This document shows, piece by piece, positions 1,831 to 7,446 of a stretch of 7,446 bases of DNA. Positions within the stretch are counted from its first letter, which is position 1. Every line of letters begins with the position of its first letter. The DNA comes from Deltaproteobacteria bacterium (GTDB lineage: Bacteria; JAUYMQ01): the NCBI GenBank assembly GCA_030698575.1, contig JAUYMQ010000061.1, positions 1-7,446 on the forward strand. Direction: 5' to 3'. The notes below the pieces were generated by a model. It did no database searches. It saw only the letters and a program-made list of their open reading frames with translations, and was not told the origin of the DNA. The translations under genes were made by a program, and so were the position numbers.

Positions 1831-2826
1831 TCAACTCGCGGCGTTCTCTCTTCCCACGTCCGGTGCGAAGTGGCAAGAGGCGAAATGACCCGGAAGGATC
1901 TCCCTCAACCCCGGCGATTCCTCCCGGCAACGAGCCTCCGCATAAGCGCAGCGCGTGTGGAACGCGCAGCCTGGCGGAGGATTGATCGGGCTTGGCACGT
2001 CCCCCTGAAGGATGATCCGCCGCTTCTTCCGGCGGGGGTCCGGCAGGGGTATAGCCGACAGCAGCGCCTGAGTATAGGGATGCAGCGGCACCTTGTATAG
2101 CGCGTCCCGCCCAGCCAATTCAACTATCTTCCCCAAATACATTACCGCCACCCGATCGCTCACGTTCTTGACCACGCGAAGGTCGTGGGAGATGAAGAGG
2201 TAGGTCAGCTCGAACCGTTCCTGAAGGTCGAGCAGGAGGTTCAGGATCTGGGCCTGGATGGAGACGTCCAGGGCGCTGACGGGCTCGTCCGCAATGATGA
2301 GCTTGGGGATGACGGCCAGGGCCCGGGCGATGCCTATCCGCTGCCGCTGCCCCCCGCTGAATTCGTGGGCATACCGGCCATAGGCCTCGGGCGCGAGGCC
2401 GACGATGCGAAGGAGCTCCACGATGCGCTCCCTCCGCTCGCTCCCCGAGGCGATGCCATGGATGGTCAGGGCCTCCCCCACGATATCTCCCACCTGCATC
2501 CGGGGGTTCAGGCTGGCGTAAGGATCCTGAAAGATTATCTGCATTTGCCTGCGTTTGGCCCGCAGCGCACGGCGGTCGAGGGAAAGCACGTCCTCGCCCT
2601 GGAACGTCACCTTCCCGGCGGTGGGCTCGATGAGCCGGAGGATGGCCCTGCCGAGGGTGCTCTTCCCGCAACCGGACTCCCCCACCAGGCCCAGGGTCTC
2701 GCCCTCCGCCAGGTCGAAGCTCACGCCGTCGACCGCGCGCACCTCCCCCCGCCGCCGGCTGAACAGCCCGGCGCTGAGCGGGAAGTACTTCCGCAGATCC
2801 CGCACCTCCAGGAGGTTCTCGCTCAT
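1831..2826 (-). CDS. oppF: Peptide ABC importer ATPase, OppF/DppF type
   Basis: This is the second ATP-hydrolysing subunit of the importer; it docks on the cytoplasmic face of the two permeases. With the ATG at 2826 it is 331 residues. It shows Walker A GESGCGKS (49-56), Q-loop Gln100, signature FSGGQ (156-160), Walker B LIIADE (176-181) and switch His214. The C-terminal oligopeptide-transporter extension follows, with PPPGCAF and Cys at 287, 293, 300 and 318. The insert between residues 16 and 26 ([11 protein letters not shown]) before the AVDGVSF strand is typical of the F rather than D subunit. A longer reading would start at a TTG at 2856 with no ribosome site, whereas the ATG at 2826 has GGAGG about 9 nt upstream. 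It is the last gene of the operon, 61 bp after the D subunit. Family assignment is secure; whether the transporter is Opp or Dpp, and its exact substrate, cannot be told from sequence. Confidence 0.95.
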
Positions 2827-2887: not shown

Positions 2888-3892
2888 TCACCCGCTCCCG
2901 TTGCCGCCCACCGGCACCCGGTTGTGGCAGGCCACCCAGTGGCGGGGCTCCACCTCCTCGAGCGGGGGATCAGTCGTCGGACATGCCTCTATGGCGCGGT
3001 CGCACCGGTCGCTGAAAGCGCACCCCGGGGTACGGTCAAGGAGCGTTGGCACGGTTCCCCGGATGGCGTTCAACCTCCCCTGCCGGGGCGCGTTCTCGCT
3101 TCCGAGCTTGGGGAGCGAGTTCAGGAGGCCCACCGTGTAGGGGTGGCGCGGCCTCTCGAAGAGCTCCTTCACGCCGCACATCTCCACTATCCGCCCGGCA
3201 TACATGACCGCCACGCGCTGGGCGACCTCGGCCACTATTCCGAGATCGTGCGTGATGAGCAGCACGCTCATCCCCAGCTCGTTCTTGAGGCGTTCGATGA
3301 GATCGAGAATCTGGGCCTGGATCGTCACGTCGAGCGCTGTCGTGGGCTCATCGGCGATCAGCAGCTTCGGGTTGCAGGAGAGCGCCATGGCGATCATCAC
3401 ACGCTGGCGCATTCCGCCCGAAAGCTGATGCGGGTAGTCCTTCATCCGCTCTTCGGGGTTGGGAATGCCGACGAGGTGGAGCGATTCGATCACCTTGTCC
3501 TTCACCTCGCCCTTCGAAAGCTTCTGGTGGAGCTCGATGGCCTCGGAGATCTGGCTGGCGATGGTGAAGACGGGATTCAGGCTGGTCATCGGCTCCTGGA
3601 AGATCATCGAGATCTGATTGCCGCGGATGTCTCTGAGCGCGCCCGCAGGGAGCTTCAGAAGATCCTCTCCTTCGAAAAAAATCTCGCCACCCTCGATCCG
3701 GCCCGGCGGCGAGGGGATCAGGCGCAGGATCGACAGAGCGGTGACAGACTTGCCGCAGCCGGACTCGCCCACGATGCCCAGGGTCTCTCCGGGGTAAACC
3801 TCGAGGCTCACGCCGTCGACCGCATCGAGCCGCCCTTCGGGCGTACGGAATACGGTCCTCAGATTTCGGACGTCGAGGAGCGGCTGGGTCAT
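2888..3892 (-). CDS. oppD: Peptide ABC importer ATPase, OppD/DppD type
   Basis: This is the first ATPase subunit of the importer, 334 residues, the usual length for the family. Visible parts in order are Walker A GESGCGKS (42-49), Q-loop Gln99, signature LSGG (157-160), Walker B LLIADE (177-182) and switch His215. The C-terminal oligopeptide/dipeptide extension contains [10 protein letters not shown] and Cys at 291, 297, 304 and 322. The ATG at 3892 is preceded by AGGAA about 11 nt upstream, a modest ribosome site. The D assignment rests on the direct [23 protein letters not shown] style of the N-terminus, lacking the insert seen in F subunits, and on gene order. It is separated from the MshEN-domain gene by 124 bp, so its translation is not coupled to the permeases. 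D and F subunits normally form a heterodimer. Substrate specificity lies with the binding protein and is unknown. Confidence 0.95.
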
Positions 3893-4016: not shown

Positions 4017-4781
4017 TCAGCGACGCCGGAGCTCGGCCCTCAGTTCATCGAGCGAGATGATCCGCTTGTGCGCCAGGAGGCGCACGAGGGCCTTCAGATG
4101 CACCAGGGCCTCGGCGCCCGCAGCGGACGCTCTGGCCGGGCGAGGCGGCTCGGGCTCCTCCTGCGCCTCCGGGGCATCGACGATCTCCGCCGGAGCCGCG
4201 TGGCCTTCCCCGCGAACCCGCTCCGTCTCGGCCAGTTCCTCGAAGGCGCCCCTGACTATCTGCATCTCGCCCCCGGCATCCTCCCCATGAATCGCCGGCG
4301 TGTCCGTGGGCCGAACGGACCGCACCGCCTGCTTGTTACCGAAATAGTGCTGGTCGATGGCCTTCAGGACCGCGTGGTCGCTGGCGATCAGCACCTGGAG
4401 CGGGTAGCTGGTTGCAAAGCGGATCTCGTCGAGGCACTCGAGGTTCTGAGGATCACCGATCGCCACGCGGAGAATGGTCCTTCCATCAGGGGTCCGGGCA
4501 ATGGCCAGCGGCAGCGCGAGGCGGCTCCTGGCGATCTCACGCGGCAGCGCCGCGAGAGCCTCCGGCTGGGGAACAACCTTGTCGAGGTTCACCCCGGGCA
4601 GTCCGTACTGCCTGGCCAGGCAGCGTGTAAGCGTCGTCTCGTCGATGTAGCCCAGGCGGATGAGCGAAGTCCCGAGGCGGTTGCCCCAGCGCCGCTGGTC
4701 CGTGAGCGCCTTGGCGAGCTTTATCTCGTCGATGCTTCCCGATTCGAGGAGAATCTCGCCGAGCTGCTTCCTCTCCTTCAT
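4017..4781 (-). CDS. Stand-alone MshEN (GspE N-terminal) domain protein, likely c-di-GMP-binding
   Basis: With the ATG at 4781 the protein is 254 residues. Residues 6-29 and 35-58 form two copies of the 24-residue pattern known from MshEN domains (RLG, two hydrophobics, G, then spaced Leu and a final Gln), with the expected 5-residue spacer (RRWGN). Residues 59-148 continue the family's second subdomain: YGLPGVNLDKV, ALPREIARS, an LRVAIGDPQNLECLDEIRF segment and a closing helix. Known MshEN domains bind cyclic-di-GMP at the N-terminus of type II secretion and type IV pilus ATPases. Here no Walker A, Walker B or Cys-zinc motif follows. Instead there is a Pro/Glu/Ala-rich linker (about 190-222) and a C-terminal basic helix ending LRAELRRR. 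The start was chosen because GGGGAGG lies 5 nt upstream of this ATG; a GTG at 4862 has no ribosome site. The first motif has Gln6 where Arg is usual. It lies on the operon strand, 111 bp after the C permease and 124 bp before the D ATPase. Domain call is firm; ligand and role are inference. Confidence 0.85.
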   Translation of the reverse strand: MKERKQLGEILLESGSIDEIKLAKALTDQRRWGNRLGTSLIRLGYIDETTLTRCLARQYGLPGVNLDKVVPQPEALAALPREIARSRLALPLAIARTPDGRTILRVAIGDPQNLECLDEIRFATSYPLQVLIASDHAVLKAIDQHYFGNKQAVRSVRPTDTPAIHGEDAGGEMQIVRGAFEELAETERVRGEGHAAPAEIVDAPEAQEEPEPPRPARASAAGAEALVHLKALVRLLAHKRIISLDELRAELRRR

Positions 4782-4786
4782 GAGAA

Positions 4787-4810
4787 CCTCCCCTGGGCCG
4801 CCCGTGGCCC
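4787..4810 (-). promoter_or_regulatory. Ribosome site of the MshEN gene with an abutting hairpin
   Basis: Read on the minus strand, GGGGAGG (4793-4787) lies 5 nt before the ATG at 4781 and decides that start over the upstream GTG at 4862. A 5-bp stem (4795-4799 with 4806-4810, 6-nt loop) ends one base before this ribosome site. It might affect ribosome access, but such short GC stems are common in DNA of this composition. Confidence 0.45.
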
Positions 4811-4892: not shown

Positions 4893-5741
4893 TCAGCTCT
4901 TCGCCCCCCGCCCTACGCGCAGACGGGGATCGAAGGCATCGCGGATCCCCTCGCCGAGCAGGTTGTAAGCCAGCACGGTCAGGAGGATGGCGAGGCCTGG
5001 AAAAACCGAGAGCCACCAGGCGATCTCGATGTTGTCCTTTCCCGCCGTCAGGATGTTGCCCCAGGAGGGGGTGGGCGGCTGGACTCCGAGGCCCAGAAAG
5101 GAGAGTCCCGATTCGAGCAGCACGGCCCCGGCAACCCCCAGGATGGCCGAGACATAGACCGGCGCCATGGCGTTCGGGAGGATGTGGCGCAAGATAATGC
5201 GGCCGTCCCCGATCCCCTGCGAGCGGGCCGCAAGGACGAACTCGCGCTCCTTCAGGCTGAGAAACTCGGCCCGCACCAGCCGCGCCACCCCCATCCAGGA
5301 GGTCACGCCGATGACAATCATGATGTTCCAGATCGACGGCTGCAGGAACGCGATCACGGCCAGGATGAGGAAGAAGGTGGGAAAGCAGAGCATGATGTCG
5401 GTGAACCGCATCGCCAGCGCGTCCACCCAACCGCCGTAGTAGCCCGCCAGCGCCCCCACGATGCACCCGATGATCACCGAGATGCCGACGGCCACGAAAC
5501 CGACAGAGAGAGAGATCCGCGCGCCGTAGATCATGCGGGACGCCACATCGCGCCCCAGCTCGTCGGTGCCGAAGACATGCTCCTCGCTAGGCGCAGTCAG
5601 GATGAGCGAAGCGTCGATCGCGGAGGGATCGTAGGGGGCGAGCAGCGGCGCCAGGACCGCCACCAGAACGAGCAGCCCCACCGTGACCGATCCGGCAAGT
5701 GCCAGGGGGTTGCGCGCCACGTCCCTGAAGGCGGTCATCAT
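4893..5741 (-). CDS. oppC: Peptide ABC importer permease, OppC/DppC type
   Basis: This is an inner-membrane channel subunit of 282 residues, typical for the family. It begins with the OppC_N segment: a short cytoplasmic lead, NPLALAGS at 11-18, and a first membrane helix at about 15-35. A periplasmic loop with FGTDELGRD (57-65), a hallmark of C-type permeases, follows. Further membrane helices include about 78-100, 118-134 and 139-155, with more near the C-terminus. The EAA-like coupling loop ([14 protein letters not shown] then RHILPN, 167-190) contacts the ATPase. Near the end [16 protein letters not shown] and DPRLR are also family signatures. The start ATG overlaps the stop of the B permease in an ATGA arrangement, with AAGGA about 8 nt upstream, so B and C should be translationally coupled. 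The tandem ATG pair leaves a one-residue uncertainty in the start. Confidence 0.96.
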
Positions 5742-6715
5742 CGGCCCGTCCTTATTCGGGGATCAACCAGCCCGTAGCAAAGATCGGCGACAAGATTTCC
5801 AATCAATGTCAGAACAGCGCCGATCACCAGCACGCCCATCACAAGCGGGTAGTCCCGGCTGAGCACGCTCTGGTAGAAGAGCTGGCCCATCCCGGGGATC
5901 GCGTAGATCGTCTCGAAGATCACCGAACCGCCGATGAGCGCCGGAATCGAAAGCCCGAGGATGGTCACTACCGGGAGCAGCGCGTTGCGCAGGGCGTGGC
6001 GGTAGATTACGGCCTCCTCGGTCAGACCCTTGGCCCTGGCGGTGGTGATGTAGTCCTGCCGGACGACCTCGAGCATGTTCGACCGCATGTAGCGCGAGAG
6101 GCCTGCCAGTCCTCCGAAGGCCGACACGAACACGGGCATGGCCAGGTGTCGCGAGTAGTCCCAGATCTTCGCCGGCGCGGAAAGGGAGTTGTGGTCGAGC
6201 GACCGGATTCCCGATATGGGAAGCCAGCCCAGTTCGACGCCGAACAGGATCATGAGAAGGAGCGCCAGCCAGAACGTGGGGATCGCGAATCCGATGAAAA
6301 CGAACACCGTGGAAACGCGGTCGAAGAGCGTGTGCTGGCGCACGGCCGAGTAGACCCCGAGGGGTGTCGCCACTGCGAGTATGAGGATGAGGGAAAGCAC
6401 GTTCAGGGCGAGCGTTATGGGGATTCGCTCGAGGATCTTGTCCAGCACCGGGCGCCTGTCGGCCGAGAAGGACTCACCGAAATCGAGCACGGCCAGGCGT
6501 TTCAACCAGCGCCAGTACTGCACCGGCACAGGCTCGTCGAGGTGGTAAATCTGCCGGATTCTCTCGCGCGCCTCGGCGCTCACCTTCGGGTTGAGCGAGG
6601 TGTCCAGTCCGACGGGCTCGCCGGGCGCGAGGTGGATGACGGCAAAGCTGATGAGCGTAATCCCGAACAGGAGCGGGATCATGAACACGAGGCGCCTGGC
6701 GAGGTGAGTGAGCAT
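5738..6715 (-). CDS. oppB: Peptide ABC importer permease, OppB/DppB type
   Basis: This is the partner channel subunit, 325 residues. It starts with the family's N-terminal helix ([18 protein letters not shown], about 8-30), followed by HLAPGEPV, a B-type signature. A periplasmic region with a [15 protein letters not shown] segment (57-71) and the LDFGESF motif (77-83) comes next. Membrane helices follow at about 100-125, 134-160 and beyond. The EAA-like loop that binds the ATPase is at 221-244 ([16 protein letters not shown] then RHALRNA). The C-terminus has [10 protein letters not shown] and ends VDPRIRTGR. The gene starts 6 bp after the binding-protein stop; its GAGG ribosome site overlaps that stop codon, so the two are probably coupled. 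With OppC it forms the translocation pore. Assignment is secure; Opp, Dpp and Ni-type importers share this subunit. Confidence 0.96.
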
Positions 6716-6721
6716 CCGACC

Positions 6722-7446
6722 TCAGGGGGCCATCGCCTGGCGCTGCAGCGGCGCCGGCACGTACCACTGGTTCCACCAGCGGTCGCTGATCCCCAGGGGC
6801 TTCTCCACGATGCCATGAAACCGCTTGTGCACCGTGACGAGGGCGTAGGGAACGTAGAGGAAAAGGATCGGCTGATCCTCCGCCATGATCTCCTGGAGCT
6901 GATCGTAGATCCGTTTTCGTTCATCCGGATCGCAGCGACGCCTTCCCTGCTCCAGTAGTTCGTCGACTTCCGGGTTGCTGTAGGAGATGAAGTTGAACTC
7001 CTTGGGGCCGGTCTTGGAGCTGTGCCAGATGTCGTACTGATCAGGATCGAGGCCGATCCCCCAGCCGAGAACGATGGCCTCGAACTTCTTCTTGTCAATG
7101 AAGTCATTGATGAGCGCCGCCCACTCCAGTTCGCGGATGGACAGTTTGATCCCGACCTTATCGAGCCGCTGCTGGATGATCACCGCGGTGTTCCGGCGCT
7201 CCATGTTCCCGTTGTTGGTAAGAAGCTCGAAGGTGAAAGGCTTCCCCCCCTTGTCCAGCACCCCGTCCCCGTCGCTGTCCCGCCAGCCCGCCTCGGCCAG
7301 AAGCGCCCTGGCCTTCTCCGGATCGTAGGGGTAGGCCTCGAGCCCCTCTTTGAACCACCGGGTCGAGGGGACGTAGGGGCTCACCCCGGGAACCCCGAGC
7401 CCCATCAGCACCCCGTCGACAATCTCCTTCCGGTTGATAGCGTAGG
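6722..7446 (-). CDS. Peptide-binding protein of the importer, family 5, 3' part
   Basis: The last 240 residues of an extracytoplasmic solute-binding protein are present; the N-terminus with its signal peptide lies beyond the right edge. The visible part opens with YAINRKEIVDGVLMG, a hallmark of bacterial family-5 (OppA/DppA-like) binding proteins. It continues through YPYDPEKARALLAEAGW, DSDGDGVLDKGG, QQRLDKVGIKLS, a GWGIGLDPDQYDIWHSS segment, YSNPEVDELL, and a C-terminal IMAEDQPILFLY region, all in family order. Although the first ATG-like or GTG codon in this piece is near 7411, the frame runs open through the window edge and the family match starts upstream of it, so the gene is cut by the window rather than short. 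It captures the substrate in the periplasm, or at the outer membrane-side surface, and hands it to the B and C permeases. Peptide is the commonest substrate, but nickel, opine and glutathione binders look alike. Confidence 0.93.
   Translation of the reverse strand, partial: YAINRKEIVDGVLMGLGVPGVSPYVPSTRWFKEGLEAYPYDPEKARALLAEAGWRDSDGDGVLDKGGKPFTFELLTNNGNMERRNTAVIIQQRLDKVGIKLSIRELEWAALINDFIDKKKFEAIVLGWGIGLDPDQYDIWHSSKTGPKEFNFISYSNPEVDELLEQGRRRCDPDERKRIYDQLQEIMAEDQPILFLYVPYALVTVHKRFHGIVEKPLGISDRWWNQWYVPAPLQRQAMAP

Follow-up and report, generated by a model that had tools for sequence, protein, structure and literature searches.

A stand-alone MshEN protein encoded in Opp/Dpp-type importer operons: a candidate c-di-GMP-responsive accessory protein

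An operon for a peptide-type ABC importer in a deltaproteobacterial genome contains a gene for a stand-alone MshEN protein, and genes of the same family adjoin opp genes in at least six phyla. We interpret the product as an accessory protein that is dedicated to an Opp/Dpp-type importer and responds to c-di-GMP, a reading to which we assign a probability of roughly 0.55; only the genomic linkage is demonstrated, whereas c-di-GMP binding, contact with OppD/OppF and any regulatory effect are inferred, and the sign of the effect is unknown. The link between MshEN and the operon is not accidental, and a sensor role is plausible. More tentatively, this protein could define a phylum-spanning class of peptide importers in which a dedicated c-di-GMP-binding protein, encoded between the permease and ATPase genes, gates uptake according to the c-di-GMP level.

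The MshEN protein and its c-di-GMP motifs

The stretch of DNA analyzed here, hereafter the window, is one whole contig of 7,446 nucleotides (C497 of genome G000). On its minus strand, an open reading frame that runs from an ATG at 4781 to a stop codon at 4017-4019 encodes a protein of 254 amino acids, with the following features.

4017..4781 (-), stand-alone MshEN gene, 254 aa (ORF, PF05157, NF053729, AlphaFold model, Foldseek/VIA match to 5HTL)
4787..4794 (-), Shine-Dalgarno sequence AGGGGAGG, 5 nt ahead of the MshEN ATG at 4781 (from the sequence)
4695..4766 (-), c-di-GMP motif I, residues 6-29, QLGEILLESGSIDEIKLAKALTDQ, deviating from the published consensus at positions 1 (Q) and 11 (S)
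4680..4694 (-), 5-residue spacer RRWGN, its Trp a mark of the stand-alone MshEN family
4608..4679 (-), c-di-GMP motif II, residues 35-58, RLGTSLIRLGYIDETTLTRCLARQ, with 10 of 11 key positions kept
4338..4604 (-), MshEN C-terminal subdomain, residues 60-148 (Pfam match to residues 59-146; 5HTL match)
4137..4334 (-), flexible linker, residues ~150-215, mostly with pLDDT <60 in the AlphaFold model
4020..4130 (-), C-terminal helix pair ALVRLLAHKRIISLDELRAEL, helices 220-238 and 244-253 in the AlphaFold model

The protein scores well above the cut-offs of both the Pfam MshEN family (PF05157, 56.1 bits against 23.1) and the NCBIfam MshE c-di-GMP motif (NF053729, 57.7 bits against 38), and a Pfam search found no match to the T2SSE ATPase domain (PF00437) in it, so that it does not qualify as a type II secretion or type IV pilus assembly ATPase. 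An earlier note on this DNA had identified the gene as encoding an MshEN domain without a secretion ATPase, and these searches confirm the assignment. The domain is an established c-di-GMP receptor (PMC5013675), but the view taken in that note, that it is confined to secretion and pilus ATPases, is too narrow: stand-alone copies are common, and MshEN also occurs in fusions with glycosyltransferase, REC, HD-GYP, CheA and further domains (PMC5013675).

The two tandem 24-residue motifs with an exact 5-residue spacer are present as proposed, along with the key ligand residues that define membership in the MshEN family, but only motif II is of the RLG type. It has the form RLG...Q and departs from the key positions solely by a Tyr at position 11, whereas motif I starts with QLG and, given also a Ser at position 11, keeps 9 of 11 key positions. 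The Gln at position 1 together with this Ser could reduce the affinity for c-di-GMP. The extended motif consensus permits Lys or Leu at position 1 (PMC11731258), and we found no binding test of Gln at this position in the literature.

Such deviations allow for the possibility that the fold was retained and ligand binding lost, the protein then serving the importer as a scaffold or assembly factor blind to c-di-GMP. A relative that no longer binds the ligand, XpsE, is known (PMC5013675), the last Gln of motif II is replaced in several Opp-linked relatives (by His in four, Tyr in two and Lys in one), and in two operons that lack MshEN, the position between oppC and oppD is taken by another gene, for a disordered protein with a helical tail. 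We nevertheless consider a blind scaffold quite unlikely: the window protein preserves the conserved Gly, the clustering Leu and the final Gln of both motifs, as judged by comparison with the consensus, and GSPII-B binds tightly without an Arg at position 1 (PMC11731258).

In the AlphaFold model of the window protein, built from 29 aligned sequences (mean pLDDT 83), confidence is high for the MshEN part (residues 4-148), with a mean pLDDT >90 across residues 11-150. The best match among solved structures is c-di-GMP-bound MshE (5HTL; Z 19.5, rmsd 1.9 over 138 residues), the alignment spanning residues 4-146, which meets the criterion for the MshEN fold. The tail, with the pattern L..LL..KG.i...E, is found in most stand-alone MshEN proteins and is not specific to the Opp-linked ones.

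The importer operon and its genome

On the minus strand, the operon reads oppA (3' part), oppB, oppC, MshEN, oppD, oppF, and the placement of MshEN between the C permease and D ATPase genes on the same strand, as noted earlier, is supported by the ORF list, Pfam and NCBIfam.

1831..2826 (-), oppF ATPase gene (PF00005 and PF08352; NCBIfam PRK11308 above cut-off)
2888..3892 (-), oppD ATPase gene (PF00005 and PF08352)
4893..5741 (-), oppC permease gene (PF00528 and PF12911), with a 4-nt overlap with oppB
5738..6715 (-), oppB permease gene (PF00528 and PF19300)
6722..7444 (-), 3' part of the gene for the substrate-binding protein OppA (PF00496), truncated by the contig end

MshEN is separated from oppC by 111 nt and from oppD by 124 nt, and no terminator-like site was detected between oppC and oppD. 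There is no Rfam match to a c-di-GMP riboswitch in the window. Outside the operon, a gene for a DNA-binding protein of the HU/IHF family (1349-1627) lies downstream of oppF on the same strand, and two reading frames, 665-1048 (127 aa, minus strand) and 239-592 (117 aa, plus strand), have no Pfam match.

With two permeases, two oligo_HPY ATPases and a family 5 binding protein, the locus meets the definition of an Opp/Dpp importer, allowing for an oppA that is split over contigs; the NCBIfam subtype matches are mixed (oligopeptide, dipeptide and nickel), and a peptide substrate is not determined. Beyond the two oligo_HPY (OppD/F) genes of the window, none was detected in the genome, and no other complete peptide-importer operon was found in it. 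The MshEN-linked OppD/F pairs are likewise the only ones detected in three other genomes (G014, G028 and G035). With 15 GGDEF proteins encoded, the window genome probably produces c-di-GMP; it also contains three further MshEN genes in long open frames.

A search of the genome with the OppA of a relative located the N-terminal half of oppA at the end of another contig, C216 (L245:5181-5912), leaving a gap of ~15 residues between the two halves. Upstream of this half and in the same direction, C216 encodes a 637-aa TPR protein and a 304-aa lipoprotein-like protein (L245:2127-5912 including the oppA half); the latter exceeds the DUF4292 cut-off and has relatives in the L043 and L090 lipoproteins. 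C216 probably supplies the upstream part that the window operon lacks, consisting of a TPR lipoprotein, a DUF4292 lipoprotein and oppA, although the join is inferred from matching oppA halves at two contig ends, with no assembly across them.

Recurrence of the MshEN-opp linkage

A single-protein search of the genome contigs found no relative, whereas an alignment-based search succeeded; in the initial search by the window protein alone, Opp-linked genomes were already among the best matches. The neighborhoods of MshEN genes from other genomes were fetched and searched with the Opp proteins of the window. The recurrence across genera of MshEN between oppC and oppD, which the earlier note had singled out as a check, was observed: L090 and L099, both from Myxococcota according to NCBI, and G149 have the order oppA-B-C-MshEN-D, with two tandem MshEN genes between oppC and oppD in L099. 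Other arrangements are oppB-MshEN-oppC (G044, G189 and G049) and, as the most frequent placement, MshEN directly ahead of oppD (G014, G028, G035, G178, G180, G194, L081 and L091), where two MshEN genes sometimes stand in tandem. Six phyla are represented, according to complete or sampled phylum lists (G000; G044 and G189; G035, G180 and G194; G049; G178; G028), and G014 and G149 probably add two more. The MshEN protein of L081 (L081:7998-11279), at ~1093 aa, has a very long disordered linker along with the usual helix tail.

Persistence within a phylum is traceable for Myxococcota and, from a small number of genomes, for the phyla of G035 and G178, but for no others: G000 and G049 are each the sole genome of their phylum, and that of G044 contains two. 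Of the 58 Myxococcota genomes, 28 encode a relative of the first MshEN protein. Five relatives of G028 from the same family (G217, G238, G251, G210 and G243) share the order DUF4292 lipoprotein, MshEN, MshEN, oppD, and several other Myxococcota families keep the MshEN pair without adjacent Opp.

Same-strand Opp genes were found within 5 kb of 19 of the 85 stand-alone MshEN reading frames (two of the 19 repeat one genome each), the remaining 66 not being near Opp, compared with a single weak ABC match among 59 ATPase-fused MshEN genes. Among 20 genomes with a sampled stand-alone MshEN, about one genome per phylum, 10 have one beside Opp, where random placement predicts 0.13 (~80-fold enrichment). 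This expectation rests on an assumed Opp-cluster number for five genomes, and the genomes do not represent independent draws; moreover, the linkage count favors linked members because the profile was built mostly from such members. In an unselected clustering of same-strand neighbors, an ABC-ATPase family ranks first, with OppD/F in 13 of its 15 loci, and OppC, OppA and OppB are also high.

The possibility that an unrelated gene was inserted by accident, raised originally as the alternative, derives some support from the closest Opp operons by OppC (L087 and L093; 77%), in which no MshEN lies between oppC and oppD, but given the recurrence in at least six phyla, at several operon positions and far above the random expectation, it is hardly credible. 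Given this recurrence across genera, both in the oppC-MshEN-oppD order and in other placements among opp genes, the hypothesis that the protein regulates the importer, also proposed at the outset, is preferred to accidental insertion.

Both of these closest operons have, convergent to oppF, a gene for a PilB-type MshEN-T2SSE ATPase that bears a double zinc ribbon (L087:5354-7306 and L093:1766-3745); as complete T2SSE ATPases in this orientation, these neighbors were rejected as linked MshEN genes and not counted. In L093, a lipoprotein-like gene lies upstream of oppA, with a TPR gene beyond. The oppC-oppD slot of two other operons without MshEN, L235:3035-3751 (G040) and L238:4671-5285 (G185), is occupied by a different small gene for a proline-rich, disordered protein with a C-terminal helix, neither having a Pfam match. 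With MshEN absent from the closest operons and another gene in its slot elsewhere, MshEN is an optional part of the locus.

A phylogenetic tree of 143 MshEN domains separates the stand-alone from the ATPase-fused proteins (support 99), with a few stand-alone proteins on the fused side, and the window protein groups with the stand-alone ones. The spacer Trp is present in 14 of 18 Opp-linked and 51 of 66 other stand-alone proteins, whereas in the 59 ATPase-fused ones it does not belong to the common residues. Opp-linked members are scattered over several places inside the stand-alone family, suggesting that the linkage was gained or lost more than once or that genes moved, and MshEN-linked and unlinked members form no clean clades in the OppD and OppC trees, so that we claim neither a single origin nor co-descent.

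Conceivably, MshEN is merely co-expressed with Opp and acts in trans on another process, such as type IV pili or motility, given that pilus and secretion ATPases are the best-known carriers of the domain (PMC5013675), that the window genome has three other MshEN genes and that most stand-alone MshEN genes are elsewhere. The separation of the two kinds of MshEN in the tree and the near absence of Opp linkage among the fused ones, against the strong enrichment among the stand-alone ones, make this highly unlikely in our view.

An extended layout, TPR lipoprotein, DUF4292-type lipoprotein, opp genes and MshEN, is found in several phyla and probably in the window genome. Lipoprotein genes lie upstream of opp and MshEN in different phyla (L043, L045, L090, L140, L146 and others), several with a TPR-repeat gene, and include DUF4292 in L043 and L090. 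MshEN might thus serve the lipoprotein part, in an envelope process, and adjoin Opp only through conservation of the whole cluster: TPR and lipoprotein genes are upstream in many linked loci, and in several Myxococcota genomes the DUF4292-type lipoprotein gene and the MshEN pair stay together without adjacent Opp. The lipoproteins are predicted to be extracytoplasmic, however, so that a cytoplasmic MshEN could not contact them directly; where all components are present, MshEN sits among the genes for the cytoplasmic side of Opp, and in L038 it adjoins oppD-oppF with no DUF4292- or TPR-type lipoprotein gene beside it. We regard this explanation as unlikely without dismissing it.

Proposed role and relation to known systems

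Under the preferred reading, that of an importer accessory protein, the MshEN head would bind c-di-GMP and be tethered by the flexible linker, while the C-terminal helix pair would dock on the importer, with the OppD/OppF ATPases as the most likely site. The choice of the ATPases as the target is an inference from loci in which MshEN is directly ahead of oppD, even without adjacent oppA-B-C. Ligand binding would reorient the head, as for GSPII-B of PilF (PMC11731258), and this might raise or lower ATP-driven peptide uptake, the sign being unknown, such that peptide import would be coupled to the cellular c-di-GMP state. Against this proposal stand the predominance of unlinked genes among stand-alone MshEN, the lack of MshEN in the closest Opp operons, a tail that is not Opp-specific and the deviant motif I.

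A link between c-di-GMP and peptide uptake is likely real, though untested. c-di-GMP is known to control pili, secretion, polysaccharide synthesis and motility; direct control of a nutrient ABC importer by a dedicated receptor, if true, would tie the decision between sessile and motile states to peptide uptake and would provide a function for a widespread family that, within the literature searched, is apparently unstudied. No description of MshEN paired with Opp or ABC transporters was found in the open literature (preprints and most subscription journals were outside the scope), so that an earlier description cannot be excluded.

The window protein shares with the MshEN domains of MshE, PilB and PilF (5HTL and 8PDK) the fold, the two 24-residue motifs and the 5-residue spacer but differs from them in the lack of an ATPase domain, the spacer Trp, the flexible linker, the C-terminal helix pair and the location in an Opp operon; for this protein, there are no binding data. 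The locus resembles other Opp/Dpp importers (OppABCDF and DppABCDF) in its two permeases, two oligo_HPY ATPases and SBP_bac_5 binding protein and is distinguished by the extra MshEN gene and, in the extended locus, by the upstream TPR and DUF4292 lipoprotein genes. EIIA-Glc, which inhibits MalK, offers a known case of an ABC importer regulated at its ATPases by a small protein of the cytoplasm; this protein has another fold, responds to another signal and is not encoded in the importer operon. Action of a second messenger on a solute ABC importer has a precedent in OpuC, which c-di-AMP controls via the CBS domain of the ATPase subunit OpuCA, and in BusA (PMC10243994). Those systems respond to c-di-AMP and have the receptor domain inside a transporter subunit or a repressor, whereas the window operon encodes a separate protein with a different domain, presumably responding to c-di-GMP, and an importer of the peptide type.
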